From contig JAYXKI010000018.1 of assembly GCA_037892935.1 (NCBI GenBank), positions 868,001 through 932,000 of the forward strand: a stretch of 64,000 bases of DNA. Reading direction: 5' to 3'. Below, piece by piece: positions 18,931-64,000 of the stretch. The notes beneath the pieces are model-generated. The model saw nothing but the letters and a program-made list of their open reading frames with translations. It was not told the origin of the DNA and made no database searches. The translations under genes were made by a program, and so were the position numbers. How positions within the stretch are numbered: position 1 is the first letter of the stretch; each line of letters opens with the position of its first letter. Source of the stretch: Phlebopus portentosus. Its lineage: Eukaryota; Basidiomycota; Agaricomycetes; Boletales; Boletinellaceae.

Positions 18931-18933
18931 TAG

Positions 18934-20232: not shown

Positions 20233-20250
20233 AGGAAGAAGTGTCAGATC

Positions 20251-20259
20251 AGGGGGGAG
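20251..20259 (+). other. Polypurine tract of copia E2
   Basis: AGGGGGGAG directly precedes the 3' LTR. Confidence 0.8.
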
Positions 20260-34273: not shown

Positions 34274-35985
34274 TGTAGTGCGCCGCACTAACCTGTACCG
34301 GTCCAGCGGCACAGGCCTGTAAGGGCGGTACTCCCCTATGCCATACCCAGGACACCCCGCGTACTATTGTCAGCAAACCAGCCTTCGCCGCCGTTACCCA
34401 TAATACAGCCTGCTCAGCGGCCGCCGGACCTTCGGCGGCCTAGGAACAGCATCCACGCCGCCGCCGCCGCCGACCATACGAACCGGCGGCGACGCCTCCA
34501 CTCCTATCTTATGATCACCTTGTCCTCCCTTCGACCAAATCCTAGTTCCCCTTCTCCAGCCTCTCTCAAGAACGGTTCCGCCGAATCCGGTGACTCCGGG
34601 CTTCGGAAGTGCTCGCACGGCGGCCGGATACGCTGCGGCGGATGTATATCGCGCCATCGCGGAGGTGTATGCCCGCCGCCGCGCCGGCTGGGTGAACGAT
34701 AGCCAGTCTCAGGTCCATTTCGTTGATTGTTTCATATTCTTATCATCCCACATTGTACGCCGAGCGCGGTAGCGCGCCCGGCGGCCGTCCGTATATTCCC
34801 CTTTTTAGTTTTATTCGACCCCTTGGCGTTTCAGATCTATATAGAGCGCGCCCTGACCGATCCGAACGGCTCCAACATTCGACACGACGTACCAGCACTC
34901 CGCCGTTCCGATTGGGGCGCCCCTAGGTCTTGGTGGCTTGGCGGCGCATCTCGGCGGCGGCCCCCGCCGTCGCGGCGCGCCTGTCACGCCTCGCCGCCCG
35001 CCGCTTTAAGTGATATTTCTTATCAAGGACTCATAGTATATATAGAGAGCATGTATCTATCCTAAAAAGTAGCAGATATACATACTAGAACGCAGCTACC
35101 AGAGACCAACCACAAGTAAAGAAGCCTCCTTCAAGAAACCAGTATATACAAAGAATCAGACAGCCGGATCGGGCGAACTCCCGGTCACGTGCCCTCGCCG
35201 ATCCCGTCCTGACGGCGTGGCCCCGGATCTCACAGGATAGAAGCCGCCGAGCTCATTCGCCGCCCTGGTCGTCTCCGCTCTGCGCAGCTGTCACTCGTCT
35301 AGTAATCGCTCCGGGGACGTCCCACTCATATCTGCATCGCCGTCTCTCTCTCTCTAGCCTCCGCCGCCGCTCGGGCCCTGAACATTTGTGATTCTTCCTC
35401 AACGCCTCGACGCAGCCGTCACTCTTCTAGGCATCTGTTATACTTCGTCGACGCCTCGACGCAGCTGTCACTCTTCTTGTGTTCACCCCTTCCGTCGGCG
35501 CCGGCGCCCCTTTTCGACTGAGTCCAGCCTCCCACTTCTCGCCGCCTCCGCCGCCTCCGCGTCGTTCCACCGCCGACACTACTCCCCTTTTAAGTGGTGT
35601 CGACTCTCTCTCTCCCGCACCCTCTCTGTGTCGTTCCGACGTCATCTCCCCGACTACCAGGCGGAACTGCACTGGTGCGAACCTCCGCCGGCCCCGCACC
35701 CAGTCCGCCGCTGTGACCCCTTCGCCGGTTCAGTCGGACTCGGCAATCCCTACACAGTCGCCGAGGCCCGGATCGCCGCGGCGAGTTATTCGAAGGCGCG
35801 GCGGATCTGCCCTAACGGCCAGATCCTTGTACATCTGAGCTGAGTGTCGCTTCTGAAAGCCTGTAGGTAGTCTGTAGATCTGGTAGGACCTCCCCTTTTT
35901 CCTCTCGACACCTTTGACATCGCCTCCCTGTGGTCGAACGCCGCCGCCGCCTTTGTCCCTGTCTAGGAGAGTCTGATAGTCTACA
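34274..35985 (+). repeat. 3' LTR of family B (1712 bp)
   Basis: Near-identical to 21499-23209. The visible differences include gcgcggtagcgcgcc versus gcgcgtgcgcgcgcc, one C-run length change and a few CpG transitions. Confidence 0.92.
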
Positions 35986-35989
35986 ACGT

Positions 35990-37268
35990 GATGTCAGTCA
36001 TCTTTGAGAAGTCAGAGTTGCTGTTTCTCTCCCAGCATTTTCTGTTTAATCCCTCGAGGTATCTTACTGATCTGAGAGTTGCCTGTGCACCACCAGGGCT
36101 CAATGGGAGCTGTTTTGCTTGGTTGCATATATGTAAGTCTGCACAATACGTCATAACCAGGTTTTCAATATAGAATCCATACATATCGTCTATCCATTCT
36201 TCATATCCTTCATCTGGAGGTGGATCTTTAGGTGCCAGGGGTTGTCAAGAAAGTCTATTAGCACCTTTGAAGTCTGCTGCTGGGATGTGGTAAATCTTGA
36301 AGTCAAATAGAAGTATTCTGGTGATCCAGCAGTTGATCGTAGCATTAGGTTGTAAGTCCAGGTTGTTAATCATGCCTTTAATGTATGCTGCATCTATTTC
36401 TACAACAAGCTTGCACACTCTGATGAGATATAGTTACATGGCATGTAATATACAAAATAATCTATAAAGTTTGATTTTTGATTGGGAGTATGTTGCTTGC
36501 ATGACATTCCAGTTTATGGAACTAAAGCAATTAATCCTTCTCCATCCATCTATGTGTTCTTGACCTAAATACTATCCTACTCTGATTATCGATGAATCCA
36601 CTGCAAGTATGACTTCAAGTTCTGATTGATAGTCAATTGCACATAGAGCTGAACATGTGATGACCACTTCTTTCAATTCATCCATTGATTCCTGTTCTTT
36701 GTCTGTCCAATCAAAAATATTGTTCTTCCAAGTGAGGGAGTATGTGATCTTGGCAAAGTCCTTAATGAAAATTTGCAGGACTCCCACTGTTCCGAGAAAT
36801 CCTTTGACTTCAGTTACCAATCAGCATGGTGGCCAGTCTCTGACCTTCTGGACTTTCAATTCATCTGGCTCTTGTCTGTAATATGTTAGTTTGTGTCCAA
36901 GAAATATGATTGACTTAATGCCAATCTCTATTTTCTTCTCTGAGTATGTCTCTCCTACTGTCTTGACTCACTGCAAAATTTGATTTACATCACATATATG
37001 CTCATAGATAAATTGCCTAATCTCTGGATTCTCTGGCAGAGTTTTGTAAAAGCTACCTAAGAGTTCATAATGCATTTTGTGACCTAACCTGGGCAAATCA
37101 TCTGCATATGGATTAGTACAGTACAGAATCTGAAGGGAATTCATGTATCCCATTGGAAGAACCATCATTCTGAATGTTCCCAAGGGGGTCTGAAAGGATG
37201 TAAGATCTTGAGAGCATTCATCTAGAACTTGCTGGTCAAAAGCCACATAGAAATCAAGGCTTGAATAA
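35990..37268 (-). pseudogene. A-like Ty3 reverse transcriptase-RNase H remnant
   Basis: On the minus strand it reads FQTPLGTFRMMVLPMGYMNS, the catalytic-site NPYADDLPRLG, KGFLGTVGVLQIFIKDFAK, EVILAVDSSIIRVG and INNLDLQPNATIN. These are closest to family A and less so to B. Several stops and small lesions are present. The B element inserted at its lower end. At 37268 it is fused in frame to a copia fragment. Confidence 0.87.
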
Positions 37269-38409: not shown

Positions 38410-38661
38410 TGTTAGATCACACAAATCCAGCAAGGGACCACTGAGTCCAGTGGTAAGTACACTTGATGTATATTAGCAGTCTAACTACATACCTGAGTCC
38501 AGTGGTGAGTACACTTGATGTAGAGTACTCACTAATGGACTGTGCCGCTTTTACAGGAGATTACATAAGCATCACATGATCAAGAAAGCGGACATAAGGA
38601 AGAATATAAACAGAACAATAAACTACAAAATACTAAGAGTGTCAGAATCACACTTCTAACA
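38410..38661 (-). repeat. 3' LTR of copia E3
   Basis: 252 bp, TG...CA. It is preceded on the minus strand by the polypurine tract AGGGGGGAG (38662-38670). Confidence 0.92.
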
Positions 38662-38688
38662 CTCCCCCCTGATCTGACACTTCTTCCT

Positions 38689-39987
38689 TCAACATAATCC
38701 CAGCATCTTACACATCTCCTGCACCTTTACTCTGCTTAGTGCTTTGGTCATAATGTCTGCTGGCATGGTCTGAGTGAGCAAGTAATGCACTTTGATATGA
38801 CCAGCCTCTACAACATCTCTCAACCAGTAGAAGCGCAGATCTAGGTGTTTCATGCGTCCATGATGCTCAGGATTGTTTGCCACAGACAGAGCAGACTGGT
38901 TATCAATGTACAGGGAAGAGGGTGCATCAAACTTGTAGCCAAACTCTGTAAAGAGATTTCTCAGCCACATAATCTCTTGTCCTGCACTAACAGCAGCAAT
39001 ATATTCTGCTTCAGTGGTGGATAGAGTCACAAAGGGCTGCAACTTGCTAGCCCAGCTGATAGCACCAGTTCCCATCTTGACAACCATCCCACTTGTGGAC
39101 CGTCTGTTATCCTCATTTCCTCCATGGTCAGCATCACAGAAGGTAGTGAACAGCTTAGGATCAGGTGCATAAGTCAACCTGAAATCCTTTGTACCCTTCA
39201 AATAGCGACATAGATGCTTTGCTGCCTTTCAATGAGCTGGACCAGGATTAGAACTGAAGCGTCCCAAGACACCAACTGCATAGGCAATATCTGGCCTAGT
39301 AGCAATAGCTAAATACATGAGTGCACCAACCAATTGCTTGTAGGGCACCTGCTTCATGTATTCAGTTTCTGCAGGGGTCTTAGGAGCCATGTCCTTGCTG
39401 AGCTTCTGCTCAGGGAGAGGAGTAGTAACAGTGCCACAGTTGCTCATGCTGAAGCGCTCTAGCACATCAATAATATACTGTCTCTGTGACAGACTGATAG
39501 AGTGCTTGGAGCGGTCTCTCTGAATATGGACTCCTAGCAGGAATGAGGTTGGGCCCAACTCATGCAGTTTAAAGTGCTTGGCCAGTTCATCTCTGACAGA
39601 CTCATACTGCTGCTTAGACTTTACAGCAATGGTCATGTCATCAACATAGACTGGAATGATGATATGCACTTCATCTCTGCTGTACACCCAAATGCTGTAA
39701 TCACAGCGCACTAACTTGAAGCCCATGCTCTTCATCACTGAATCAAGCTTCTTGTGCCATTGGTGGCCAGCCTGCTTAAGGCCATAAATTGACTTGATCA
39801 GCTTGAGAACAAATCCAGGGCCAAAGTAGTCCTCAAATCCTTCAGGCTGGGTCATGTAGACATCATGCTCCATCTCACCATTGAGGAAAGCAGTAGAGAT
39901 ATCAACACTATACAGCTCAAGGTCTTCAAATGCAGCTAATGCCAGGATGGCTCTAAGTGCAGCCCACTTGGCTGTAGGGGCAAACAC
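38689..39987 (-). pseudogene. Copia E3 reverse transcriptase-RNase H, one premature stop
   Basis: It has the same 432-codon region as in E2, with YVDD in PVYVDDMTIAV and RNase H motifs STTEAEYIAA and IDNQSALS. A TGG to TGA change (near 39229, in PAHWKAAKH) splits it into 252 and 170 codons. It begins immediately after UAG 39988-39990. Confidence 0.9.
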
Positions 39988-42900
39988 CTAAGAGAATTCA
40001 AGACCTGGTTGCTGAGAGAAGCCCTTGGCTACCAGCCTTGCCTTGTACCTGTCTACAGATCCATCTGCCTTGCGCTTGAGCTTGAACACCCATCTGCATC
40101 CAATGGGCTTTCTGCCAGGAGGTAGTCTGACTGGTTCAAATGTGCCATTCTCAATCAGACTGATAAATTCCTCCATGGCTGCTTTCTCCCAGAGGTCTGC
40201 ATCAGGACGTCCTTTGATGTCCTTCCACTGATAGGGTTCAGGACTGATGTGTTGCACATCTTGTGCAGAGAACACATGCTCAGCGCAATTAGATAACTGG
40301 AATGCATATTCCAGAGCATCTTCATAAGACAGATAGATGTCCTCTAGTCCTGCATTAGCACCAAAATCCATTAGGCCAGCAAACATCAGTGCTTCAGCTT
40401 GCAACTCCTCTTCTGACATGATGTCCAGTTCATCAGGTGAGTCACTGTCCATCTCAACATCCTGCTCTGGCTGCTCTACAACATCTGGCTGAGCTGCAGA
40501 GTCAGTATCAGAAGCAGTATCAGGTACAGTGTCAGATACAGTTGGCTCTGCTGAGTTGAAGTTGAAGCGCTGTGGTGGAATAGGGGAGCCTGGCACACGT
40601 CTGGGAAGGCGCTGTCCAACATAGTCCACATCCCACCAGCCAGTGGTATGACGTCTAATAGGTCTCCACATTGGATCTGGCCACCAGGGAGAAGCAGGCC
40701 TTTGTTTCTTTGAGGCCTGCTCAGATAGCAGTGGTGAAGTAGTGTGTTCACGCTTTGGTGGATGAGTGGCTGGTGAAGGAGGATGATGTAGGGGACTGTG
40801 TGAAGGAGGACTAGGTGATGGATTAGGTAGAGGACTAGGTGTAGGTGTAGGTGTAGGCATAGGAGGATCTGCTGGATGCATAGGAGCAGGTGGTGAAGGA
40901 GGAGCTGGCAGAACATCAATAGCATCCTCTACTCCCCCCTGTTCTGGCAGGTCTTCTGTCTGTGTAGGCATATTCACCCTCAAGTCAACTGGGTTTCTAG
41001 ATGTACCAGGGAAGACTCTCTCATCAAATTGAGCAGAGTCACTAATGACTTCCTTCCTGGTAAGTGGATTCCAGAACAACCAGCCTTTATAGTTAGAGGG
41101 ATAGCCTAGGAACACACATTTCTGTGTGTGGGACTGCAGCTGCTTGTGTTGATCTTTCTTCACAAGCACATAGGTGGTGCATCCAAATACACGCAAGTGA
41201 GAGACATCTGGCTTTGACTGGAACCAGAGCTCATAGGGTGTACTGGTAGACACAGCAGAGGTGGGAGAGCGGTTGTGTACATGTACAAATGCTGCCACTG
41301 CATCCCACCAGAAGCTAGAGGGCAGGTGTGCTTCATTAAGCATAGTAGTAATGCCCTCTGCAAGTGTCCTGTTAGCACGCTCTGCAACACCATTCTGATG
41401 AGGTTCATCTCTAATAGTGTGCTGTCTGTGGATGCCTGCAGTAATACAGAACTGGTCCCATTCCTTAGACACATATTCTCCACCTTTATCATCACGAGTG
41501 GCTTTGATCTTCACTCCTAACTGGTTCTCTGCATAGGCCTTAAATTGCTTGAAAGCAGCAAATGCATCACTCTTCTTCTTCAATGGGAGAACAGCCCAGT
41601 AGCGGCTGTAATCATCAATGAAGGTGATCCAATATTTAAAGCCATGTCTAGATTGGACAGGCAATGGACCATGAACATCAGAGTGAACCAATTGGAGGAG
41701 ACCAGAAGCTCTGTGAGATGCAAGTTTGGAGACATTAGACCTGTGCTGCTTGCCAGCAATGCAAGGTTCACAGATAGGATCTGGAGTGCTCTTGGATTTG
41801 ACAACCATTCCTTTGACTAGCTCCTCAGTCATCAACCTGTTTACATCACCATGATTGAGATGTGCAAAGCGCCTGTGCCAAAGTGTAGTGTCAAGTGGAC
41901 AGGTGCTGGTGAATGCAGCATAAGCAATGGTAGGGACAATATGGCCATTGAGAGTTGCTGCATTGTAAGAGGTGATGTTTGCAGTGAAAAGAACTGTTCC
42001 ATGACGATGGAAAAGCATCTTGTTATGGTGAATGGTGACAACATATGATTTGGAACGAGTCAAATACAGGACTGAGAGGAGATTGTTTCTGAGATCAGGA
42101 ACATGAAGTACACACTCAAATTCAAGTAACTGTCCAGGTTTGCCACCAACTACAGGCTGAAAGCGCACTGTGCCAATGCCAACTGAATAAATAACTTGGT
42201 TGTTGGCTAAATGAATAGAGGTGTGATTTGTTGAGTATTTGGTGAACCAATGATGATGTGGAGTCATGTGGCAAGTGGCACCTGTGTCAGCAATCCAGTC
42301 AGTTCCTGCATCTGGGATAAGAGGTGAATGGGGATTGGTGTAGTCAAGAGCACTTGCATTGCCAGCAGATTCAGCAGATTCAGCAGATTCATCTTGTTGA
42401 GCAACATGGGCCTTCTGGCCCTTCCTGCCCTTCCTCCTCTTCTCTTCCCTGTTCTTCTTAGCCCTGACATGTGCATCCTTAGAAGCTGCCTGCTTCATAT
42501 AGCAGTTCTCCTCTGTGTGCTTAGGAATACCACAGAAGGTGCAAGTGACACCTTGAGAGGAGATAGGCTTTACAGCACTACTAGTGGATGTGAACATGGC
42601 CTGGGGCTGAAGCTGAATGCGCTCTTGACGGTTCTGCTGCTCTTGGGCAAATGCCTCCTTAAGGTTATTCCACTTGAATTCCTTCATAAGGAGCACTGCA
42701 GAGCGAAAGGAAGCATAGTCCTCAGGAAGAGCACGAATCAGACATGCACATGCAAGCTCATTCTCAAACTCCTCAAGTTTGAGGGTGCTAGAACGAGTGC
42801 TTCTGATCTTGTGCAGTGCTAGCTCAACCCTGCTCACCAGATTAGTGAGGGACTCATCTTCCTTCTTGGTGATGTTAAAGAACTCATCATAGGCATTAAA

Positions 42901-43221
42901 GCGCGCAGCTGGGTTGTCCTGCTCATTGATCTTCTGAAGCTCAGTCCACATCTTGACTGGATCATCCATGTAGTCCTGTACCATAACCTGCATGCTATGC
43001 TCAATTCTCTGATAGATCAGGCCTGCAGCTTGCTCAGCCTTCTCTTCCCAGAGCTGGACAGCCTCTGCTGGAGCACTAGGCTTAGCTTCCTGACCAGAGG
43101 TCAGGCGCCACAACTTCTTGACTTGAAGTGCAGCACGCATATCATGCTTCCAGACAGAGTAATTGCTGTCATTGAGCTTGGTGATAGTGGATAGTGTCTC
43201 AGAGGTGACAGGATCAGACAT
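39988..43221 (-). CDS. Copia E3 Gag-protease-integrase-linker polyprotein (1077 aa, ends in UAG)
   Basis: This is the best copy of the copia polyprotein. Gag runs from MSDPVTSETLSTITK, the zinc knuckle CTFCGIPKHTEENC is near residue 230, and the protease DTGATCHM near residue 310. The integrase finger HRRFAHLNHGDV ... CEPC is followed by the core with HSDVHG, RDDKGGEY and NGVAERANR. A Pro-rich linker (PMPTPTPTPSPLPNP) follows, then the first reverse transcriptase motif (CRWVFKLKRKADGS, KARLVAKGFSQQPGLEF). It stops at a UAG that occurs at the same codon in E2, where copia elements usually continue. The six-G run kept here shows what E2 lost. Confidence 0.92.
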   Translation of the reverse strand: MSDPVTSETLSTITKLNDSNYSVWKHDMRAALQVKKLWRLTSGQEAKPSAPAEAVQLWEEKAEQAAGLIYQRIEHSMQVMVQDYMDDPVKMWTELQKINEQDNPAARFNAYDEFFNITKKEDESLTNLVSRVELALHKIRSTRSSTLKLEEFENELACACLIRALPEDYASFRSAVLLMKEFKWNNLKEAFAQEQQNRQERIQLQPQAMFTSTSSAVKPISSQGVTCTFCGIPKHTEENCYMKQAASKDAHVRAKKNREEKRRKGRKGQKAHVAQQDESAESAESAGNASALDYTNPHSPLIPDAGTDWIADTGATCHMTPHHHWFTKYSTNHTSIHLANNQVIYSVGIGTVRFQPVVGGKPGQLLEFECVLHVPDLRNNLLSVLYLTRSKSYVVTIHHNKMLFHRHGTVLFTANITSYNAATLNGHIVPTIAYAAFTSTCPLDTTLWHRRFAHLNHGDVNRLMTEELVKGMVVKSKSTPDPICEPCIAGKQHRSNVSKLASHRASGLLQLVHSDVHGPLPVQSRHGFKYWITFIDDYSRYWAVLPLKKKSDAFAAFKQFKAYAENQLGVKIKATRDDKGGEYVSKEWDQFCITAGIHRQHTIRDEPHQNGVAERANRTLAEGITTMLNEAHLPSSFWWDAVAAFVHVHNRSPTSAVSTSTPYELWFQSKPDVSHLRVFGCTTYVLVKKDQHKQLQSHTQKCVFLGYPSNYKGWLFWNPLTRKEVISDSAQFDERVFPGTSRNPVDLRVNMPTQTEDLPEQGGVEDAIDVLPAPPSPPAPMHPADPPMPTPTPTPSPLPNPSPSPPSHSPLHHPPSPATHPPKREHTTSPLLSEQASKKQRPASPWWPDPMWRPIRRHTTGWWDVDYVGQRLPRRVPGSPIPPQRFNFNSAEPTVSDTVPDTASDTDSAAQPDVVEQPEQDVEMDSDSPDELDIMSEEELQAEALMFAGLMDFGANAGLEDIYLSYEDALEYAFQLSNCAEHVFSAQDVQHISPEPYQWKDIKGRPDADLWEKAAMEEFISLIENGTFEPVRLPPGRKPIGCRWVFKLKRKADGSVDRYKARLVAKGFSQQPGLEFS

Positions 43222-44396
43222 GATAGTTGAAATGAGGTGTGGATGAGAGTGGACAGATGATGCTTAGAAGAAATAAGCAGTAAGAGAGCAATGAGGGAGA
43301 GAGCGCTAACAAATTTATGCCTGGAGGTGACAGATCAATGCCAACCAGTGCAGTCTTCTACAGTCACTGAAGTATACACAGATTTGCCGCAAGACAGTGC
43401 TGGTCTGTTGGTCTGCTAAGACCCCGCAGGCACCGCTAACTGAGAGAGGCTCTAGGCTTAAGTAGACACTCAAAGAGTGACTACAACCAGCGAACTAAGG
43501 CCGGGCAGGCAAGCTTCACAGTCTGTAGGCTAGGCTGATCCAACAACAGTGATGGAGCCACACACCAATTAACACCAGAGCTGCCAGACACAAAATGCAG
43601 CACAGAGAGGGAACGGATGGGCGGAACAGTGCGCAAATTGGCACGCAGATAGAGGACGACGAGCGGAATTGAACGGTGCAAAGAGCACGCGGATCGGATC
43701 AGCGGATCGGCAGCAATCGACAATTTCCGTCGGCACAAGAATAGCCCACAGCGCAGTTAAACCGCGGCCGCTCAAGCTGAAACTTGGTGGAAGTATGCAC
43801 AGGTATGGGAGCCATATGCACATCAAAAGGCGTCCAGATCGGATCAGCAGTTGCCGAGAAAATCGAAAGTTGCCAAAATGGGGTGCAAAACAAAGATCCT
43901 TCAATAAGTCGGCGAGTTCTTGACCGATTTGGCTGAAACTTCGCGACAGGGGACGCGGAAATAGGCCAAATAGACGTGCCAAATTTCGTGAGAAACGGAT
44001 CAGCGGTCCACCCGGGATAGGCAATGCAACTTCGAAAATAGCCAAAAGTGATAGGGCTATAGCGGTGTCAAATCGCAACGGATCAGGCTGAAACTCGGCA
44101 GGACAGTAGGCCTATATGGGCCGAGTAAACGTGCCAAAGGGCGTCGAAAACGGCTGGATGGTTGTGGAGCAATCAAGCGGCGGAGTTTTGGGGAGATTTG
44201 GCACTAATAAAGGCCAAAGAAGAAGGCAGAGGGCTCTGGGACTGTGGAAACTGCACAGAAGGGTGCAGAGGATGATGGGAACACTAGGAACACACCAAAA
44301 GGCCAGTCCAGAACACCAAAAGCTTCTCTGACAACAGCAGCAGCTCTCCAAACTCAAAAACTCAAAAATGCGGCAGTACAGACAGCTAGAGCTCAA
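43222..44396 (-). other. Leader of copia E3
   Basis: It is the untranslated leader corresponding to 14528-15695, closely similar. No gene is supported. Confidence 0.55.
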
Positions 44397-44407
44397 GGCT
44401 CATAACC
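44391..44407 (-). promoter_or_regulatory. Primer binding site of copia E3
   Basis: On the minus strand GGTTATGAGCCTTGAGC follows the LTR with no spacer, as in E2. Confidence 0.7.
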
Positions 44408-44659
44408 TGTTAGATCACACAAATCCAGCAAGGGACCACTGAGTCCAGTGGTGAGTACACTTGATGTATATTAGCAGTCTAATTACATACCTGAGTCCAG
44501 TGGTGAGTACACTTGATGTAGAGTACTCACTAATGGACTGTGCCGCTTTTACAGGAGATTACATAAGCATCACATGATCAAGAAAGCGGACATAAGGAAG
44601 AATATAAACAGAATAATAAACTACAAAATACTAAGAGTGTCAGAATCACACTTCTAACA
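44408..44659 (-). repeat. 5' LTR of copia E3
   Basis: 252 bp, the same ends as 38410-38661. Confidence 0.92.
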
Positions 44660-51329: not shown

Positions 51330-51528
51330 TGTTAGAGGTGTAGGTCTGAGGTTGCACCAGTTTTAATCCTTTTGCCTAAGCAGCAGTATGTTGTGCAGAG
51401 GTGATCTATCTACCCACATTTAGCTATACCATGTGGTTCCCTTACTATCCTTCCTAGTTGCAGTCCTGGTTAGGGATGCTTTTAGAGACAAGGTAAAGTA
51501 AGAGCAGATTAGGATTTCCAAGAGGCGT
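51330..51528 (-). repeat. Family C LTR fragment (last about 200 bp, inverted)
   Basis: The reverse complement matches 10419-10615 (cgcctcttggaaatcc ... cacctctaaca). It is cut at 51528 by the family A element. Confidence 0.82.
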
Positions 51529-53156
51529 TGAAACTCCTGTGGACGTTCTGATGCCGGACGGGGAGTGTATAGTTCGAGGGGCTGCCCTAGAATACCTTCA
51601 AACGGTCAGCAGAGAATTACACCTGAGCTAAGGGCACGAAGGAGTGGAGGGAAATAGGGATAGACAATGGAAGGGCTTGGTGAGAACCGAGGATATGAGG
51701 GAAGCGCTCGAGGAGGAATTCCGAGGGTAGGCTTCTCCTGAGATCGACGGTGGCGGTGCAAAGGCTAAATCGACTCTCTGGCTCAGCTGTGAGCTCTGGA
51801 CTAAAGCCGACTAACCCAAGGCACAAGAACTAAACTAACTAAGCTACGCTAGTTGAACCACCAACCTAAACGTGACTAATCGACTGTGCTAACACACTGG
51901 TAAGCGACTGCAGTCGATCTCACTCGTAGTCTTAAGTGTCGAAACGTGGCGTAATAGTTCGAAACGTAATACGATGGACAAAGGATAATTGCTGAGTATG
52001 TTGAAATGTGATGCGAGGGATGGAGGTGCAAAACGATGACGGAAGGGGACTGAGAGAATCGAAGGATATGTGTGGGATGATGAAACCGACCGTTTCCGAT
52101 CGAAACGATGCGGAATAGCACCGGGCTGGTCTTGAGGAAGCGGAGAGTGGAAAGTCAAGAGGAAAGGGGTGATATGGTGTCCTTTCCCGACGACAATGAA
52201 GAGAAGAAGGTGTTGCGAGACCAAATGCGAGTGGCACGCAGAGTAACTGGGTTACGAGCGAAACCAGGCGAAACAGTTCGGAACACGTATGGAGGTATCG
52301 GTTCGGGTGAGAGAAGTAAGAGGAGCCTTTGTACGATCACAGCAAACTATACGAACATACGAACGGCTCTGCTACAAAGAGAGATCACCGATCGACTGTA
52401 CAGAACACGAAATATTATATATTAGACTATAGAGATGAGAGAGTCCACTACGAACAAGTAGACTAGAGGTCGAGGGACTTTGAGACGATGTGAGAACTGT
52501 AAGCTAAGCTCCCACTCAGCTCCGACTAAGCTGTCCTTCTACTACGAGAGTCGTGCTATATTTATACTAAACGTCCAAGACTGAGCCTCCCAGCAGTCAG
52601 AGAACCTACGTCACAAAGAAAAGGGAACGCATATCGCTATCTACAAAGGAGAGGAGCACATAGGAATGGTTTAAGGGACACATAGGTCAAAAGAAACAAT
52701 ACTAAGCATGTCTGGAATGAGAGCATAATGGATTAAAGGGGACGCATATAGAAAGGTCAGAATATGTGTGAAACCTTCGGAACTGGGTCTCTTTGAGCGG
52801 AACAAAGTGGAACTCGGGGAAACAACTTGGAAGGGCTCTGGCTAGCCTGACAAAGTAAGTCTGCGATGTTTAACAAAGGAGAGGGACTGAGGACGAGGTT
52901 GCAGGGTCAAATCTCTTTGTCTGGAATGCGGATCCGAGGTCTGGAGACTTGTGATCGACGCGTGCAAACTCAATGCCGTGATTCTCCTGTCTTGATGGCC
53001 GATCAAAGAATGGTGCATGTGCCATCTGGACTATGGCGTTCTTGCTAAGTCTACTCGTTCGAGCAAAACCAGTCAAAACTGAGCGAAACCAGTTGGAACA
53101 CCGCGGAACTGGTCGTAATGACTCCGTATGTTCCCAAGCTTCAGACTTACTCTTCA
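51529..53156 (-). repeat. 3' LTR of family A (1628 bp)
   Basis: It has the same ends as 661-2288 in inverse orientation. The TATA box is near 52557. CpG decay relative to copy 1 is conspicuous. Confidence 0.92.
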
Positions 53157-53284
53157 TCTCCCGGGTTCATGAAATAGTGACTGTCCGCGGTCACTCCCAT
53201 CTCAATCCAATGCATGGGAGTTTCGAAGCATAACGCGTCACGTCTAAATTTTCTTCCGCTGTCATCTCTTCTTCATTCTCCAAT

Positions 53285-55570
53285 ATGTTCACTTTCGAAG
53301 AAATCGTTGCGCTCTTGGGACCCATCAACTCCAATGACGACTGGAAGACAGCGGTCGCAAAATTCGAGGCAGACGTTGCCTTGGCCAGATCAGCAATAGA
53401 TGAACTAGACCATGGCGTCACAACGGTAATTCTGCCGGATAAGACAAAACTGGTCGAATGGATCGCGCCTACAGGTTTGATGATGGTACGGTGGTTGACG
53501 AATCCGGTGATGGAATCTTTGATGGATGGGTGGAAGGCAACCACGGTGCATAAACCACACACTCTAATCAAGAATTTTTGTTAATGAAATTCGACAGGCA
53601 TGGAAGGAAGCATTGGAGCAAGTCTGTCCCAAAGGAACGAAAGAAGTCTGGTTGGAGATGGCGTACTCCAACTACTGCAACACGGACGCTCTCCTACGGA
53701 CGCTGTACTACGATCAACGGGAATTTTACGCCAGGATGGAGACCAAATGACGAGCTTTCTTCTGCAGATGCAGGGTTCCATTTTATCCTGCCTCGTTCGA
53801 TTCGACTTGTGGGTTCTTCTTAGGCAAATCGTTCCCTCCAATGTTCCCGAAACTGCACCCTGACATCAAAAAGGCTCTCGAGAACGTGAGAATGGAGAGC
53901 TCCAAGTTCCAACAAATGGCAAGGTTCACTGGCAACACGGACTACACGTGAGACGAAGCTGTCCGGAGTCACGTAGGTACTTCTTCTTGTCTATCCTCTC
54001 CATCTAATCCTTCCTACAGCAAGCGTTCGAATATTGGGAGGATATCGAGCAATGACACCTTCGTGCAGGGCACATCCTTCGCATCGACAAGGTGAAATTG
54101 AGAACAGTCCAGCTCCTCTGGGAATACTACGGCTATTCCATTCTTCGTCGTCGGCTCTATCAACTTGTTCGTGCTCAGGAATCCAAAACGCAACAACAAC
54201 AACAGCAACAACAACGATCCCAACAAGTGCTGTCTGAACCTTTTTCTCAACCGCAACAACAACAGCAGCAACAACCAATGCTGCCTGAACCATTTCCTCC
54301 ACAACAACAACAACAGCAGCAACATCAAATGCTGCCTCAGGACGTCGATAGTCCAATGGAGGTTGATTCCGCTCCTCTTCAGGTCGAAACTGGCGAAACG
54401 ATTGAGGATGGAGAAGTCGCGGAACTGGTCAAAACGCTTGAAACTGGAGCGGAACGTTTGGAAGGGGCTAGCCATTCTACACCCTTAACCTCACTCGAAC
54501 CCACAATGCTCGAGATTGAGCTTCGCAAGAGTGAAAGACGTGAAGAAGAGGAACGCGCTGCTCAACGCGCCGAAATCTCCTGGATGGCTGCCGAAATCGA
54601 GGCCAACATGCGACGACGGCTGGATGTAGAGACTCGCCGCGTTCATGGTGTTCGGCAAGTGGTGGACTCGGACAAGGAGACTCCTGCGATTCAGGAAAGT
54701 CCTGAGAGTCCTCCTCCTGGTCATCGGGGAGAAGACTCCGTTGTCATGAGTCCAGGCGACGGAGGAATGGATATCGGTGATGTGGGAATGGAGGCGAATA
54801 AGCCGTTTGAGGCGGACGCAAGCCTTGAAGAGATTCAGGCTCTCAATACTGCGAGCAACAACAACAACAGCAACAACAACAACAATAGCGGTACTGCTGC
54901 TGTTCCGCACGAAACTGTCAAAATGCGAGCGAGACGCGTTTCTCTGGTACAACGAGCGTCTTCTCAACCTGAGGCTGGTCCTTCTAGGATTCCAGCTAAT
55001 GGTGGTGGTTCTGGTGGTGACGACAACGATAATGACGACGACGACGACGACGACGATGGTGACGAATGATTGAGCGATGGGCGCATTCGTCATCGGGTTC
55101 CGTGCGACCAGTGCCAGAAGCATGGCCGTGATTGCGTAGGTCTTCTGCAGAGGACCTGCACTCCGTGCTTGAAGCAGGCGAAGGGCTGTAGTCTAGCCAT
55201 GAAGGGCAGGGCTGTAGCTGCGAAGCGTAAGGCAGCTCGGGAGGCGCACGATCGGGAAGCAAAACGCCAGAAAGTCATAGCTCTGGCAGCCAGATCAGTG
55301 GGTGGTCGCGTCGAGCATGAAGCTCTGCAGCGGGAGGTTGGGGAATCCGAGCTGCAGTTCGTGCTGGTGCGGATGGATCACTGGGACAAGGTCCTGTCCC
55401 GGATGCTGAACGAATTCAGCATCCTCGTAGTGCAGGCGCACGCAGATCGTCATCTGCTGCTCGAGTTGGCTGGGGTGAAGACTGGGGAAGATGAAGACGA
55501 GGAAGAGGAAGATAGAGGGGAAGTGGAGAGGGTTCGTCAGTCGAAGGGGAAAGGTAGGGCTCGGGAATAG
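53285..55570 (+). pseudogene. Antisense three-exon gene of family A: six-cysteine cluster protein, about 728 codons, four TGA stops
   Basis: Exons 53285-53545, 53598-53972 and 54020-55570; introns of 52 and 47 bp, both phase 0 with CTAAT branch points. The N-terminal 250 residues look globular (FTFEEIVALLGPINS, WLTNPVMESLMDGWK, WEYYGYSILRRRLYQLV). Then come three glutamine-rich runs, a charged coil (ELRKSERREEEERAAQR), an Asn run and an Asp run. Last is the cluster PCDQCQKHGRDC ... CTPCLKQAKGC (C-X2-C-X6-C-X7-C-X2-C-X6-C, about residues 574-602), followed by a basic helix and an acidic tail. In-frame TGA at 53748, 53949, 54053 and 55067; copy 1 shows CGA at the first site. Probably a nuclear nucleic-acid-binding protein when intact. 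Confidence 0.75.
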
Positions 55571-56020: not shown

Positions 56021-59000
56021 TTAATCGGAATTTTGGGACTCATCGTCAGGGAATTTCTCTGGCAAATCTTCTATTTTGGGTATGTCATCATCTTCATCCG
56101 ATCCAATGAGCTTGGTCACCGGAACGGTCAAATGTGAACACGGGAAGTACGGAACCAGGCGAAACGCTGCTATTCGGAGTTTCGAAACCACTCCATCGAG
56201 TTCAGCGACGATATACGAACTGCCTTGGGTGCGTCGAACTACCACGTAGGGGCCTAAATAGCGGGGTTTCATTTTACGATTGAGTTCCATCTTGATACAC
56301 GTGTTTCACAAGAGTATGAGGCTTCCTGGCTGAAAGTCGTAGTCCTTGATTCTATGCTTCTCCACCTCAGCGAACTGCTTCGCATATGCATGCCTTGCAT
56401 TCATGACGAGTTTCGCAATGCGATCCAACTCTTCTGGACGTTTCTGGAGTTGTTTTGCACGTATTACAATGAGTTCCGACGTCGTAACTGGCGAATTGAG
56501 CGGCGGTGCCAGGTATGTTGCTTCTGCGAGGTCGAAAGGCAAAACTGCTTCGACTCCATGGGCCATGTAATACGGGGACATTCCTGTTGCTCTGTTGATT
56601 GTGATTCTTTCTGCCTAAAATACTGAGTCAGCGTGATCACTCCAACGCTTGTCATTACCGTCTGCAGCTTTAATCAAGGCTTCCTATACATCAAAATGTC
56701 TGCGTTCGACTAATCCATTTGCGCATGAGTTGTATGACGAAATCTGAATGTGGTTGATGTGATACCGCATCTTCAAGTAATCTAGCGCAGCAACAAATAG
56801 TGTGCCATTATCAGTAACAAGTTCGAGGCATGCTCCATATCGACACAAAAGGTTCTGGAAGATAAACTGGCCTACGGTCTTACCAGTTTCTTCACGAAGA
56901 AGTCTAAATTTGGGATACGCGGTTAACGAACAATGCACATGCACGATATATCAGAATCCACTTGATTTCGGCATGACCTTCGAGTCAATATGGATGCGTT
57001 GGAACAGAGGGGCTACCTCCAGTACATTCAGTGGGATAAGAATATTCTTCGTCTGGCGTATCTGGCACTCATGACAGGTGCGCACAAAATACTTCATGTC
57101 CTGTCCTAAGGACGGCCACCAAAATCTCTCCAGCAGTCGCATTTGAGTGCAGAAAATTCCTTTGTGTCCTAGATCGTCGTGAGCTTGCTTAACTAGGTCC
57201 CATCTGCGTTTTGCTTCTATTACGACTTGGTGCCGGCCGTTCCGCACTTTTCTCCACAGACGGCCTCCCTTCACGAAGAAGTCAGCTGCATACCTGATTA
57301 GCTTCACATAGCCACTATCGCTAAGATTGTCTGGGCATGTGAGATGCGTGATTAGCTTTGTGACGTCATCTAAGCGGCTATCCTTCCTTTTCATAGATTC
57401 CGTAGAAGGAAATAGGTTCTCAGTCACTGTTTCGCTAGGTGTTCTGCTCTGTTGCGCTACTTGGTATGTCGAAACCGGCTCTTCTATCGCAAAACCGTAC
57501 ATTTTGTCTACCCATTCTTCATACGTTTCATCCAGAGGGGGGTCTTCTTCAGCTGCTCTTTGTCTGGATAATCCATCGGTACACCGGAAATCGGCTGCTG
57601 GGATGTGTCTGAGCTTGAAACTGAAGAGAAGGATACCTGCGATCCATCTGTTAATAGTTGCATTGGGCTGCAGGTCGGGATTGTTGATCATCTCCTTGAT
57701 GTATGCTGCATCCATTTCGACTACTAGATTCCGGACTCCGATGAGATACAGTCGCATCGCGTGCAATGCTCGAAATAAGCCATATAACTTGATTTTCGGC
57801 TGTGAATATGATGCCTGGGTCTGATTCCAGTTAATAGAACCGAATCGATTGATCCTTCGCCTTCCATCCGAGTGCTCTTGTCCTAAATACCAACCAACTC
57901 TAATAATAGATGAGTCTACCGCCAATATTACTTCGTTATCCGACGCGTAGTCGATTGCACACAGCGCGGGGCAAAGAATAACGGCTTGCTTTAGTTCGTC
58001 CATTGCGTTCTGTTCTTCGTCTGTCCATGCAAAAATCTGGTTCTTCCTTGTCATGCGGTACAATGGGCGAGCGAGTTTCGAATAATCCCTGATGAAAATT
58101 TGAAGGACTCCTACCATTCCCAGAAATCTTCTGACTTCCGTCAGCGTTCTACATGGCGGCCAATCTCGTATCTTCTGTACTTTCGAATCATCTGGCTCGC
58201 GTCCCTGATACGTCAACTTGTGTCCAACGAATACGGCTGACTCCACACATGGAACCAACTTCTTTCCTGAAAACGTTCCTCCTACGGCCTTCATTCGCTG
58301 TAAAATTCTGTTCACATCGCATATATGCTCATACACGAAACGACAAATCTCGGAGTTTTCTAGTATGGTCTTGTACGAACCATCTGGTAACTCATATTGC
58401 AATTTTGGGCCTAAACCGGGTGCATCATCTGCGAAAGGGTTCATAACGTGCGGAATCTCATCCTGAAGGATAAAGGCCACGTTGTTATGTATAATCTGCA
58501 AGGAATTGGTATATCCCATTGGTAGAACCGTCATTCGAAATGTTCCCAAGGGTGTCTGGAATGTAGTAAGATCTCATGAGTGTTCGTCAAGCTTTCTTTG
58601 GTCGAAGGCAATGAATAAATCCAACTCCGTGTAACAAGCTCGTCCTCCACTACTCTCTGCAATCGTTTCGACGTTCGGTGGTACTGCTGAGTCCTTTACC
58701 CGTAACCGCATTAAGATCCTGCAAGTCGATGATGGATCGCAACGTTTCTTTGTCTTTCTTTACCAAGCAAAACCATCTGGATCGATATGATGAATTCGAC
58801 AGTTCAATAACCCCATTGCGAATCTTCTCTCGAATAAGTTCGAGGGCCTTGTCATAAATTCCCGGGGGAATTGGAATGCTCTTGTGCTGCCATGGTATAT
58901 GCGGTATTGTGGGAATGCGTATCGGGTCGAAATACGTCGGATCGAGTGTTCCGCATTCGGATTCGGTCCATGCCAATGCTTCTTCCTGCAACATAATTAG

Positions 59001-59471
59001 ATTCTTCACTAACAACCTCTCCGCTGGCCACAGAAAGGTATTCTCATTGATCTTCAGTGCTTCCATCCTTTCGGCAGTTACACGACCCGTGGGTTCGAAC
59101 GGCTTCGGTACAACTGGCATCTCGGGCATCCCTCTCAACGGATCCAGATGCTGCCTTCATACGATCCTGTATTCTTCTGAAAGGACTCCCGGGATCGGCC
59201 TGACTTTCTGCGCTACTCGTTTGTAAGCCATTACTGCCGCATCTTCTTCTTCTGCGGTTTCTAAAACACAGGAATGATATGACCGTTCTTCTTTGTCAGT
59301 AGTATAGCAATTTTGGTTTAATAAATAAGGCAATCGTTGGTTGAAAAGAGATGGGATTTTGTGTGAAATAAATTCGAAATCATAAGAAAATACCTGAACC
59401 GGCAATTGGTCACTACTATTTTCGTCTCTCCAATTTCTCTCAATCAGTTCCTCGATGCTTGCGGAAAACCC
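56021..59471 (-). pseudogene. Family A Pol: reverse transcriptase, RNase H, integrase (several stops)
   Basis: Pol is entered by a minus-one shift at 59471-59465. Reverse transcriptase has SSYRSRWFCLVKKDKETL, TPLGTFRMTVLPMGYTNS and NPFADDAPGLG (FADD where B has YIDD). RNase H has ILAVDSSIIRVGWYLG and VEMDAAYIKEM. The integrase finger is HDDLGHKGIF ... CHECQ, with core motifs HIDSKV, VTDNGTLF and NGLVERRHF. The C-terminus is KPRYLGPYVVVRRTQGSSY, with no chromodomain. Stops near 59157, 58573 and 56946 are TGA, and the one near 58573 aligns with Arg in family B. A single-base frameshift lies near 58700. About 1150 codons, as in B. Confidence 0.9.
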
Positions 59472-61837
59472 TTTGGAAGTGGTCCTCGCGCGATCGTTCG
59501 AATTCCGGTGGCCACTTTGCTTTGCTTTCTGCGATTGTTCGGGTCTGTTAAGGTGATATGTTGGTCACCTGATGTGTAATCCTTCATTTTGCACTCCGTA
59601 ATAGCAAAAAACGGTCTCCCTAACAAAGCCTGGAATGGAGCGTTCGGAACGACTTGGACTTGGAGCGAAACGTCAATCCCGGCTATCGTGAACTTCACGT
59701 TAGAGATCATGCTAATGGTAGATGACCTAGCTGCGTCTGCTGTCTCGAGGATCATTCCTTTGTCAGAGGATAGGGGTATCTGAAGCTTCTCCCATATATC
59801 TTCGCGGAGCAGACACACTACGGCTCCCTGGTCAAGCACACATTCGACTTCTAGAGTGTCTTCAATCAACGCACTAACGGTCCTGAGGGGCATGGATGCC
59901 TCTGCGGTGACGCCTTGTCCACTGAGCGCCAGTATTTCTTCTGTCGAAAGTGTTTCGCCTGTTTCGACTTGTTCCGACGTGAAACGCCCAACTTGTAACG
60001 TAAGTGAATCATCCACGACCTCACCATATTTGACTTCAGCTGCATTGTATCTCTTTGCCGTCGTCAGCTCCTTCATCTGTTTCCTAACGTCCGGGGCGAT
60101 TGAGAGGAGTTCACGTTGGCTGATGGTGATAGGGGTATCGAGGGTACGAGTCAGAACGTTGGAGACTGCGCTCGAGTCTTCTATTGGTACGACATATTTA
60201 TACTGGGGTTGTGATTTCCTGGTAATGTCATCCTGCTGCGGTGACTGGAGTGACCTTGTCGAGGGCCACGTGTCACTCGGTGGCACGGGCTGCAGTTTCG
60301 CCTGTGCCTTCTTATGAGGCTGAACTCTAGGGATCTCTATGCCATCGGGCTTCGTTCTTCGTCCACCAGCTGCCTTCTTCTTCACCTTGTTAATCAAAAT
60401 CTCCAAATGTTCGATGTCGTAGTTTTCCTGCTCGTCCTGATCTTCTTCGTCGTGACTATATGCGTACGCTGGACCAGCTTGATGACTATATGTGGGCGTG
60501 ACCGACTCGACCATCCCTACCATGTGTGTCGCCGGGGCTTTAGCATGAAAGCTATCGATTCGTTCTTTGAGATTGTTTCCTGGTAGCGACCTTGTAATGA
60601 GACCACCATTCGGCAACACAATCCTTCCATCTGGGCTCCTAATGCACTTTCCGGCTTGGATGTACTCAAGAACCTTCATACACGATCAAATATAGTGTCC
60701 TGCTTCGCCGCAGAAGTTGCAAACTGGGTTGCGCGGAGTTTCGCTGCGTTCCACCCCTGGTCAATGCGGAATGTTCCCTTTGCTCAGGGCATCGAGCGTA
60801 ACCTGGAAACTCTTCAACGTATCCATTACCTTCGCCAAATCTACTTCTTCCTTCTTCACGACACTTGTTGAAGCTTCTCTGGTAGCTGGGGGTGGAAAGT
60901 TACTGCCGAAACTGCCCACAATCTTTCCTCCCAGCACAAAATTCGAATGTTCAAGCACGTCCTTAATCTTGTAAGGCGTAGACGAATCGTGGTCTGGTAG
61001 CTTAATCTCGATACAACGAATGAGCGCCTCTCTAAGGTCTCCTGTAATTCCCATCAGGAACATCTCGTCAGCTTGGGACTCCAAGATCTTTCGGTTTGTT
61101 ATAAGATACTTAGAGCGCCTGACAAATTCCCGATGATATTCGCCTAGGTCTTCTCGGTTCTTGATCCCTTTCTTCGCCCGTTCTACGACCAAATGCTCCA
61201 GTTCTCCCTTGGAGTAGCGTTTCCCTGCTGTGAGACTCGGGTATAGAGCTATAATCTCTCTCTTCACCGTCTCCACATTAGGGTTCGGGTCATTAATCTC
61301 GTCGGTAGTCTCCCAAAGTTCCGCGACATCGGTCTTCGCATAGTACAAGAACTTTCAGACATGATCTCTATCGTTCCATGCGGCCTGTCTTGCAATTTCT
61401 GCAACGTCTTCGAAGAACCTAGGGAGTTCCTTTGGTTCTGAGCCGTCAAACGTTGGGGCACGTTTGTCCCCATGCGAGGGCGGTTGGTACGCCATTGCAG
61501 TTTGTCAATTTGTAAGTTGTTGTAATACGTTAGCATTAGCAGACAGATGAGCTATTATCGCTGCGTTGCTGGCTAAGATCTGTTGAGTTCCAGTAGGTAG
61601 TTGGTAATTGGTAGGCGGGCTAGCTGGTCTGTTCGGTGAGCCTGGGGTGGAAGCTGGCACGGATGAGAGGTTGGGGAGTTCTGAATCGGCGATGGTAGAT
61701 GGGGAATGATCTAGGGAATCGGTGTTGGAAGGAATGGCGCTAATGGATTGTTGCAAGGGTGTTTTGCTGTGTTCCGCATTTTCCGCAGCGGAATGTAAGT
61801 TGCGATTGACAATCCTCAGCCTTCGAGTCGGCGGCAA
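59444..61837 (-). pseudogene. Family A Gag-protease, one frame with several TGA stops
   Basis: Pieces at 61837-61505, 61503-61348, 61348-60761 and 60679-59444 share one frame. They include Gag N-terminus (RIVNRNLHSAAEN), capsid (FDGSEPKELPRFFEDV, LYPSLTAGKRYSKGELE, EYHREFVRRSKYLI), zinc knuckle CNFCGEAGHYI-x-SC with TGA inside, the block PQYKYVVPIEDSSAVSNV shared with B, and a retropepsin with LDQGAVVCLL (DQG instead of DSG) and APFQALLGRPFF. Breaks at 61503, 61350, 60760 and 60690 are all TGA. No ATG is found near the N-terminus. The frame ends at 59444, just after the GGGTTTT heptamer. Confidence 0.85.
59465..59471 (-). promoter_or_regulatory. Minus-one frameshift heptamer GGGUUUU, family A
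   Basis: In the protease frame the codons read AAG GGT TTT, so the heptamer is in the X-XXY-YYZ register. The minus-one frame opens directly into Pol (GFSASIEELIERN), while the zero frame stops 19 bases later at 59444. Confidence 0.65.
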
Positions 61838-61954: not shown

Positions 61955-61956
61955 CT

Positions 61957-63583
61957 TGAAACTCCTGTGGACGTTCTGATGCCAGACGGGGAGTGTATAG
62001 TTCGAGGGGCTGCCCTAGAATACCTTCAAATGGTCAGCAGAGAATTACACCCGAGCTAAGGGCACGAAGGAGTGGAGGGAAATAGGGATAGACAATGGAA
62101 GGGCTTGGTGAGAACCGGAAATATGAGGGAAGCACTCGAGGAGGAATTCCGAGGGTAGGCTTCTCCCGAGATTGACGGTGGCGGTGCAAAGGCTAAATCG
62201 ACTCTCCAGCTCAGCTGTGAGCTCTGGACTAAAGCCGACTAACCCAAGGCACAAGAACTAAACTAACTAAGCTACGCTAGTTGAACCACCAACCTAAACG
62301 TGACTAATCGACTGTGCTAACACACTGGTAAGCGACTGCAGTCGATCTCACTCATAGTCTTAAGTGTCGGAACATGGCGTAATGGTTCGAAACGCGATAT
62401 GATGGACGAAGAATAATTGCTGAGTATGTTGAAATGTGATGCGAGAGATGGAGGTGCAAAACGATGACGGAAGGGGACTGAGAGAATCAAAGGATATGTG
62501 TGGGACGATGAAACCGACCGTTTCCGATCGAAACGATGTGGAATAGCACCGGGCTGGTCTTGAGGAAGCGGAGAGTGGAAAGTCAAGAGGAAAGGGGTGA
62601 TATGGTGTCCTTTCCCGACAACAATGGAGAGAAGAAGGTGTTGCGAGACCAAATGCGAGCGGCACGCAGAGTAACTGGGTTACGAGCGAAACCAGGTGAA
62701 ACGGTTCAGAACACGTATGGAGGTATTGGTTCGGGTAAGAGAAGTAAGAGGAGCCTTTGTACGATCACAGCAAACTATACGAACGTACGAACGGCTCTGC
62801 TATGAAGAGAGATCACCGATCGACTGTACAGAACATGAAATATCATATATTAGACTATAGAGATGAGAGAGTCCACTACGAACAAGTAGTCTAGAGGTCG
62901 AGGGACTTTGAGACGATGTGAGAACTGTAAGCTAAGCTCCCACTCAGCTCCGACTAAGCTGTCCTTCTACTACGAGAGTCGTGCTATATTTATACTAAAC
63001 GTCCAAGACTGAGCCTCCCAGCAGTCAGAGAACCTACGTCACAAAGAAAAGGGAACACATATCGCTATCTACAAAGGAGAGAAGTGCATAGGAATGGTTT
63101 AAGGGACACATAGGTCAAAAGAAACAATACTAAGCATGTCTGGAATAAGAGCATAATAGATTAAAGGGGACGCATATAGAAGGTCAAAATATGTGCGAAA
63201 CCTTTGGAACTGGGTCTCTTTGAGCGGAACGAAGTGGAACTCGGGGAAATGACTCGGAAGGGCTCTGGCTAGCCTGACAAAGTAAGTCTGCGATGTTTAA
63301 CAAAGGAGAGGGACTGAGGACGAGGTTGCAGGGTCAAATCTCTTTGTCTGGAATGCGGATCTGAGGTCCGGAGACTCGTGATCGATGTGTGCAAACTCGA
63401 TGCCGTGATTCTCCCGTCTTGATGGCCGATCAAAGAACGGTGCACGTGCCATCTGGACTATGGCGTTCTTGCTAAGTCTACTCGTTCGAGCAAAACCAGT
63501 CAAAACCGAGCAAAACCAGTCGGAACACCGCGGAACTGGTCGTAACGACTCCGTACATTCCCAAGCTTCAGACTTACTCTTCA
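61957..63583 (-). repeat. 5' LTR of family A (1627 bp)
   Basis: It ends TGAAACTCC (61957) and ACTCTTCA (63583) on the plus strand, matching 51529-53156. The two LTRs differ at a few percent of sites, mostly transitions at CpG, so this copy is older than the B element. Confidence 0.92.
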
Positions 63584-64000
63584 TCATTCTGAGCCTTTCA
63601 ATGTCTAGTGGCTCTATGTCATGCATAGAAGTGTCTTCTGTTGTCTCCTGTTTATCTTACATATCAATATCACTGTCTTTAACTGTCTATCTTGTACACT
63701 TCAGTGTGGGAGTTGCTTCTCTGAGTGGTATTGGTCATGGTGTCCAATTTTGTTTCATTCCTGCCATTTGTTTGTCATTATATTATTCCTCTCGTAGATA
63801 TGTACTAGTTGTCATTCTAGGATTTTCCTTTAGTACTGGCTAAATTTGTTCGCCATCTGGTTTCTTCTGTACCAGTGGTAGTGGTCACCTTCTTCATAGT
63901 GGCTGTTTCTTCCATCACTTAGGAGAGTCATTTATTTTCTCCTGTTTATCTCAGCTATGCTTACCTGTTACTTCTGTAACTTCATCTTTAAATGTCTGGT
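63584..64000. other. Unassigned sequence right of family A
   Basis: It is a T-rich stretch with scattered stops and no recognised domain. It does not match anything else in the window and does not continue the C LTR found left of the element. Confidence 0.4.

Follow-up and report, generated by a model that had tools for sequence, protein, structure and literature searches.

Antisense genes for Zn2Cys6-like proteins in three Ty3 retrotransposon families of Phlebopus portentosus, and phased CGNAAC arrays in the long terminal repeats of two of them

Antisense genes in two elements of the window

We analyzed a 64,000-nucleotide stretch of the Phlebopus portentosus genome (C18:868001-932000, referred to here as the window), with genome searches covering 38.4 Mb in 23 contigs. 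Long terminal repeat (LTR) elements are stacked throughout the window. Two of them, belonging to Ty3/gypsy families that we call A and B, carry between pol and the 3' LTR a spliced gene for a six-cysteine protein on the strand opposite to gag-pol. This arrangement, proposed for A and B in an initial annotation made from the sequence alone, was borne out and extends to a further family, C, so that there are at least three Ty3 families with such an antisense gene rather than the two first counted.

The family B gene lies on the + strand, from an ATG at 53285 to a TAG at 55570, exactly where it had been placed, and is antisense to a - strand Ty3 element. This element is bounded by a 5' LTR at 61956-63585 and a 3' LTR at 51528-53158 (both -, 95.9% identity). 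The frames of its gag-pol region (56021-61354, -) are broken: a gag-like part without a Pfam match (60761-61354, -) is followed by a protease (59444-60685, -) and by RNase H and the integrase zinc domain (56951-58573, -), which Pfam recognized in separate frames as it did the protease, and then by the integrase end (56306-56614, -). The gene itself starts 127 bp from the 3' LTR edge and has three exons and two introns, both of phase 0. Exon 1 (53285-53545, +; 261 nt, phase 0) ends at a donor GT at 53546 and is open in another copy too; exon 2 (53598-53972, +; 375 nt) is open in copy L042; and exon 3 (54020-55570, +), which encodes the poly-Q, acidic and helical parts, has an open frame of at least 500 amino acids in 25 of 67 copies, one of these 25 containing a TAG within the match. 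For intron 2, 25 of 30 copies have the donor GT at 53973. A donor at 53948 was rejected, being GT in 1 of 30 copies, the window's own.

The gene is thus spliced, as had been claimed, but the copy in the window is decayed and not intact. It has in-frame TGA codons at 53748-53750 in exon 2 and at 54053-54055 and 55067-55069 in exon 3, where 25, 25 and 27, respectively, of 30 copies (the window's own included) have CGA, and a change from CGA to TGA is that expected from a CpG transition. The last of the three lies directly upstream of the cysteine cluster, C-X2-C-X6-C-X7-C-X2-C-X6-C (CDQCQKHGRDCVGLLQRTCTPCLKQAKGC), which occupies 55103-55189 (+).

The family A gene runs on the - strand from 32058 to 30393, antisense to a + strand element with LTRs at 21499-23209 (5') and 34274-35985 (3'; 99.5% identity), a protease open reading frame (ORF) at 25212-26606 (+) and a pol ORF at 26461-29949 (+) encoding reverse transcriptase, RNase H and integrase. 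It consists of five exons (31711-32058, with the ATG at 32058; 31279-31650; 30964-31224; 30769-30900; and 30393-30716, with the stop; all -) separated by four phase 0 introns. Of 30 copies, 26 retain every one of the eight splice dinucleotides, and the other four are rearranged in the 5' half. The cluster, at 30540-30629 (-), has the form C-X2-C-X6-C-X8-C-X2-C-X6-C (CERCIGRGEMCTRRLPALLCQACRVSHHRC).

The A gene starts 2.2 kb from the 3' LTR. The gap between them contains a tandem duplication (32659-33007) with a step of ∼145 bp, which is reminiscent of tandem repeats in Retand elements of plants and is a candidate place for sites of family A's own. Exon 3 of the gene (31224-30964, -) encodes two GKTITL motifs, one of them within GKTITLEVE, which is also found in polyubiquitin (P0005); the A protein matches ubiquitin-bearing proteins with an E value of 5.5e-7 over ∼10% of the query, and this stretch is either a captured fragment or a chance likeness.

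The assignment to Ty3/gypsy is based on the order of reverse transcriptase, RNase H and integrase found by Pfam in the A pol together with the LTRs, on RNase H, the integrase zinc domain and protease (in separate frames) together with the LTRs in B, and on tblastn and an LTR pair in C. In those pol frames of A and B that were scanned with Pfam, no chromodomain was detected.

Zn2Cys6-like proteins in three families

A loose six-cysteine pattern, applied to all six frames of the window, matched only twice, at the A and B clusters. Second-order Markov shuffles of the window gave a mean of 0.017 matches, with 0 of 60 shuffles reaching two. Across A, B and C the cluster takes the form C-X2-C-X6-C-X7/8-C-X2-C-X6/7-C and lies towards the end of the protein, a position that had been described for A and B as unlike that usual for Zn2Cys6 proteins and that was confirmed for both. 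The cysteine spacing of fungal Zn2Cys6 proteins (PF00172) follows the consensus CX2CX6CX5-12CX2CX6-8C; members of this group bind two zinc ions and recognize half-sites of the CGG type. The clusters of all three families satisfy it, so that the suggested fit to the Zn2Cys6 type holds for the spacing, but not at the level of Pfam, where A scored 12.7 to 15.5 bits, below the Zn_clus cut-off of 21 bits, and B and C gave no Zn_clus match. We therefore term the proteins Zn2Cys6-like and do not file them as members of PF00172.

Copies were aligned for 12 of 33 A, 13 of 67 B and 3 of 33 C places, chosen for spread and not at random. The B and C proteins share ∼30% identity over the cluster and ∼100 residues of the helix that follows it, and six cysteines, two glycines, an arginine and a proline of the cluster are invariant in 17 rows (13 B and 4 C-type). 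Judged by these alignments, the two proteins are homologous. In A, the six cysteines are invariant in 12 copies and in the database protein P0003. A aligns with B/C over the cluster alone (hhalign E value of 0.0012, probability of 19%; blastp over the cluster, E values of 0.005 for C versus A and 0.16 for B versus A), so that an origin of A and B/C from one ancestor is no more than suggested. Outside the cluster, blastp between A and B found nothing better than an E value of 5, in agreement with the earlier remark that the rest of the two proteins looks unrelated. The proposed old shared module thus has in its favor one place and one orientation in three families, while descent of A and B from it is at the level of a suggestion.

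Structure prediction gave a divided result. The AlphaFold model of the B/C C terminus (mean pLDDT of 73.6) shows the cluster followed by long helices, but that of the A C terminus was too poor for use. With the B/C model, the two best Foldseek hits in the PDB were to Pho7-DNA complexes, at nonsignificant E values of 0.69 and 1.2 over 35 columns. A sequence search of the PDB with B/C listed Pho7 chains as the third and fourth of four rows (E values of 2.2 and 4.5), and the same search with A gave an unrelated chain (E value of 0.97). The matches listed by VIA-align concerned the helical part only and included no Pho7 row, an absence that is not evidence. By reading of the sequences, B and C contain poly-Q, all three proteins contain acidic or Ser-rich stretches, and basic runs occur after the cluster in B (KRKAAREARDREAKRRK) and upstream of it in C (PTKRPR); these features would fit a nuclear regulator.

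An A exon query found 33 places in the genome, and a query with the B C terminus found 67 places of family B together with 22 weaker matches, the latter belonging to family C. A C query gave 99 rows, comprising 62 B copies (at E values down to 3.9e-10), 34 C rows and three pieces of 26 to 34 amino acids that were left out; two overlapping C rows on the same contig were merged, which leaves 33 C places. In the stretches compared at three loci, the C pol is ∼69% identical to that of B and 48 to 51% identical to that of A. The C gene is antisense, lies tail-to-tail with pol, starts 135 bp from the 3' LTR edge and bears the cluster CERCARTGRVCEGFPGQACDYCRTKARRRC.

Counting all three families, a pol end lies within 2.5 kb beyond the 3' end of the gene in 118 of 133 copies (31 of 33 for A, 60 of 67 for B and 27 of 33 for C), with median gaps of 728, 738 and 887 nt, respectively, and gene and pol are on opposite strands in 118 of these 118. 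Among the remaining 15 copies, two have a pol end at 2.5 and 4.1 kb and 13 have none. Conversely, 120 of 129 pol-end hits have a partner gene; at least four of the nine unpaired ones are second halves of split matches, and the lists are lower bounds. An additional ORF between pol and the 3' LTR, opposite to gag-pol, is therefore present in most copies, and the alternative that the initial annotation had considered, matches mostly outside retroelements or in random orientation, does not describe this genome.

In the protein databases, queries with C and with A residues 116 to 478 matched only Sanghuangporus relatives (P0001 to P0004) and ubiquitin-bearing proteins, with the C protein showing 97% identity to one from Sanghuangporus sanghuang. 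Two of the deposited gene models related to A, P0002 (S. sanghuang) and P0004 (S. vaninii), lack the cluster, which in P0002 is missing because the last exon is read in another frame; annotation may thus hide this family.

In each of the three families the gene faces pol tail-to-tail on the opposite strand, an arrangement that would also suit a transcript that acts as RNA, through double-stranded RNA or transcriptional interference, with the protein being incidental. The inverted duplication (81.5%) that adjoins the C gene at L070 (1487-2409), around the start of the gene, duplicates its 5' part and could give a hairpin transcript. We nevertheless consider such a role very improbable, since splice sites, many open frames and the six cysteines are kept within families and ∼30% identity is retained between B and C in the cluster region.

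Selection was assessed against a null in which changes fell at random on sites sharing their trinucleotide context; four of 30 copies in each of A and B, rearranged or poorly aligned, were left out of these and the CpG counts, and most loci used did not include B exon 1. For changes shared by at least two copies, the ratio of nonsynonymous to synonymous changes was 0.62 in B, a value as low as which was seen in 4 of 1,000 simulations, and 0.76 in A, where 106 of 1,000 were as low. The evidence for constraint is weak in B and not significant in A, and young copies decaying at CpG sites would give much the same pattern. CpG transitions make up 190 of 273 differences among A copies and 228 of 399 among B copies, which suggests cytosine methylation of both elements.

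Phased CGNAAC arrays in the LTRs of families B and C

The largest type of array comprises six CGNAAC sites that follow each other in exact 10-bp steps, and an intact version of it (698-753, -) is found in another B LTR of the window (659-2288). In the 3' LTR next to the B gene, six sites of this type, three of them decayed at the CG and the last ending in T, are found in 10-bp steps at 53064-53119 (+), 166 bp upstream of the ATG. The same LTR contains three CGRAAC sites in 10-bp steps (52259-52284, +), a three-site array of CGAAAC, CGTAAT and CGAAAC (51940-51965, +) and a decayed three-site array (52758-52783, +). The 5' LTR holds the counterpart of the six-site array (63491-63546, +; three sites decayed) and three-site arrays at 62687-62712 (+; two sites decayed), 62368-62393 (+) and, in decayed form, 63185-63210 (+). 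Two further arrays are internal, one near the gag end in the orientation opposite to the LTR arrays (60728-60753, -) and one within exon 3 of the antisense gene (54420-54455, +) with steps of 10, 9 and 11 bp.

In the LTRs of B copies, CGNAAC recurs almost only at multiples of 10 bp, with counts in L072 of 8 at 10 bp, 6 at 20 bp and 4 at 30 bp. A word-spacing scan of hexamers with up to one wildcard, at spacings of 7 to 60 bp and against 200 shuffles, gave CGNAAC (or its complement) with a 10-bp step as the top-ranking combination both in the better-preserved B LTR of the window (10 pairs) and in the C LTR (3 pairs), and none of the 200 shuffles reached either value; for the decayed B 3' LTR the top combination was the same word at 20 bp (4 pairs, again reached by 0 of 200). 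The C LTR is 1,343 bp long (L071 830-2172 versus L078, 99.8% identity), with its four-site array at ∼1259-1323, mainly on the strand opposite to that in B. Alignment of the B and C LTRs is confined to 54 bp at the U5 end (76% identity), 23 bp, and ∼52 bp at the U3 edge, and with such short blocks the two LTRs are probably distant relatives.

Genome-wide, three sites at 10-bp steps occur 450 times for CGRAAC, 284 times for CGWAAC and 719 times for CGNAAC, compared with 2, 0 and 4 for the reversed controls; at 13-bp steps, CGNAAC gave 0 and its reversed control 1. We inspected 100 places from each of the three 10-bp listings. For 80 of the 100 CGRAAC places (450 total), a B gene lies no more than 12.5 kb away, and 13 others are in LTR-like pairs; of the seven left, one is a simple repeat and six have LTR-type spacers. 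Nine of the 100 show the internal array in the orientation of that at 60728-60753. Among eight C copies on contigs within the CGWAAC listing, the C-type array is present on both sides in five, on one side in one and on neither in two. Since most listed matches are copies of the same LTRs, these counts demonstrate concentration in the elements, not independent origins.

The array words are mostly CGRAAC in B and CGWAAC in C, CGGAAC being among them. Within an array the spacers vary while the hexamer is constant, a pattern not expected from simple slippage. Array strand is not uniform, as it changes from LTR to interior and from B to C, and both orientations relative to the element RNA therefore occur, which, together with the varying spacers, argues for DNA sites over RNA signals. 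Both LTRs have a TATAAAT box on the sense strand (L072 477 and L071 1626); the B arrays are both upstream and downstream of it, and the C array is ∼300 to 370 bp downstream.

Elsewhere in the window, 36174-37208 is 67% identical to the B pol at the DNA level and represents a further, diverged relative. Another Ty3-type remnant with integrase, a Tf2-1-like SH3 domain and a chromodomain lies at 5510-6757 (+), and Copia-type elements (14259-20511 and 38410-44659) form a large inverted arrangement with 6.25-kb arms of 99.1% identity.

A candidate regulator of its own LTR

With moderate confidence, we favor the reading that the antisense gene encodes a DNA-binding regulator of the element's own LTR. 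It starts from what is directly seen, namely the gene in its conserved place, the B-C homology and the arrays with their concentration in the elements. We infer from these that the gene is expressed and that its product binds zinc, enters the nucleus and occupies the arrays, where the effect might be activation, repression or counter-silencing. In B and C, and probably in A, the product would be a nuclear DNA-binding protein built of a Zn2Cys6-like binuclear cluster and subsequent helices, with glutamine-rich (B and C) and acidic stretches; in its own LTRs, the B/C protein most likely binds CGNAAC half-sites, which form direct repeats at intervals of one helical turn.

Binding to the arrays would control two promoters, that of gag-pol on the sense strand within the 5' LTR and that of the antisense gene beside the 3' LTR. 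Since the B and C genes start so close inside the 3' LTR edge, the U3 of that LTR can serve as their upstream region, and the same U3 in the 5' LTR would lie upstream of gag-pol; with arrays near both promoters, a protein that binds them could set both. The introns, being antisense to the genomic RNA, would stay unspliced in it and so, by this reasoning, survive retrotransposition.

Binding to the LTR had already been put forward in the initial annotation, and it now has circumstantial support for B and C, because the LTRs of both hold helically phased CGNAAC arrays, but not for A. The word-spacing scan found no phased array in the A LTR, where the best word was matched by 157 of 200 shuffles, and a search for phased or inverted arrays in the A LTRs, the gap between A gene and LTR, and the A gene yielded nothing trusted above shuffles, the gap showing CGCCNA at 11 and 30 bp with 3 pairs compared with 2 in shuffles. 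That family A has the antisense gene but no array, and that the pairing of protein and array in B and C is a proposed one, would suit a rival reading in which the arrays are an LTR enhancer for a host transcription factor and the antisense protein serves another function, such as RNA or capsid chaperoning. We regard this as unlikely, given that only seven of the 100 listed CGRAAC places (450 total) are outside B elements or LTR-like pairs and that the motif is common to two divergent LTRs accompanied by homologous antisense proteins.

Among known regulators, the closest in kind to the proposed B/C regulator are the Zn2Cys6 factors, especially Pho7, which resembles it in cysteine spacing, the helix after the cluster and a CG-centered site, and was the top, nonsignificant Foldseek hit. 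Pho7 is described as reading TCG(G/C)(A/T)xxTTxAA; in the pho1 promoter it is reported to bind a pair of direct-repeat sites, each independently of the other (PMC5559640). The A, B and C proteins differ from these factors in scoring below the Pfam cut-off or giving no match, in having the cluster towards the C terminus and in being encoded by retrotransposons.

A different kind of element-encoded protein offers another explanation. VANDAL elements of Arabidopsis are DNA transposons. Their VANC protein is reported to bind DNA sequence specifically, at repeated short motifs that differ between related families (PMC5735166), and in analogy to it the antisense protein could be an anti-silencing factor that recognizes repeated motifs on its own copies and lifts DNA methylation or heterochromatin without being promoter specific. 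The preponderance of CpG transitions among copy differences, suggestive of cytosine methylation, the CpG within CGNAAC and the presence of arrays in the LTRs as well as the element interior would all suit such a function, as would the description of VANC targets as tandem repeats differing between related transposable elements (PMC5735166). Most listed arrays, however, are in LTRs and flank the TATA box in B, as expected for ordinary regulation, and the likeness is drawn from the published description of VANC. While anti-silencing is reported for VANC in plants (PMC5735166), it would be conjecture here, and we give this explanation a low probability.

As to its place in the element, the proposed regulator has counterparts in the additional ORFs of plant Ty3 elements, represented by Retand TRP28, RIRE2 and Grande gene23, which are likewise described as antisense, between pol and the 3' LTR, and present in most copies (PMC11963269, PMC7264820). 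TRP28 is predicted to bind DNA, gene23 is predicted to be nuclear and is described as having its own promoter, and a regulatory role has been proposed; the role of antisense genes in this position is described as unknown in plants (PMC11963269, PMC7264820). The plant proteins differ in having another domain, with the word "zinc" in neither main text, and the passages describing them name no element-encoded DNA sites (PMC11963269, PMC7264820). In fungi, brtn is cited as an additional antisense gene of Boty-like elements of Botrytis cinerea (PMC7264820, PMC8365987, PMC4227169), and thus as an antisense gene in a gypsy element; its host is an ascomycete, however, and a chromodomain is reported for the gag-pol of Boty-like elements (PMC4227169). 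The literature searched, at the level of titles and abstract openings and with few subscription journals, contained no element from a fungus in which a zinc cluster is encoded antisense or the LTR has sites for a protein of the element. Relative to that literature, the zinc cluster, its spread over three families in a basidiomycete and the LTR arrays appear new.

Families B and C, two sisters with proteins only ∼30% identical, each combine a candidate DNA-binding protein with a candidate operator inside one element. If confirmed, this combination would show that LTR retrotransposons can carry dedicated cis-trans regulation, in parallel to retroviral transactivators and plant VANC. As a tentative extension, of which we are less confident than of the regulator itself, this may be a lineage with its own transcription factor and operator, in which the arrays changed together with the protein between the sisters to give each family a private self-recognition switch against host silencing.
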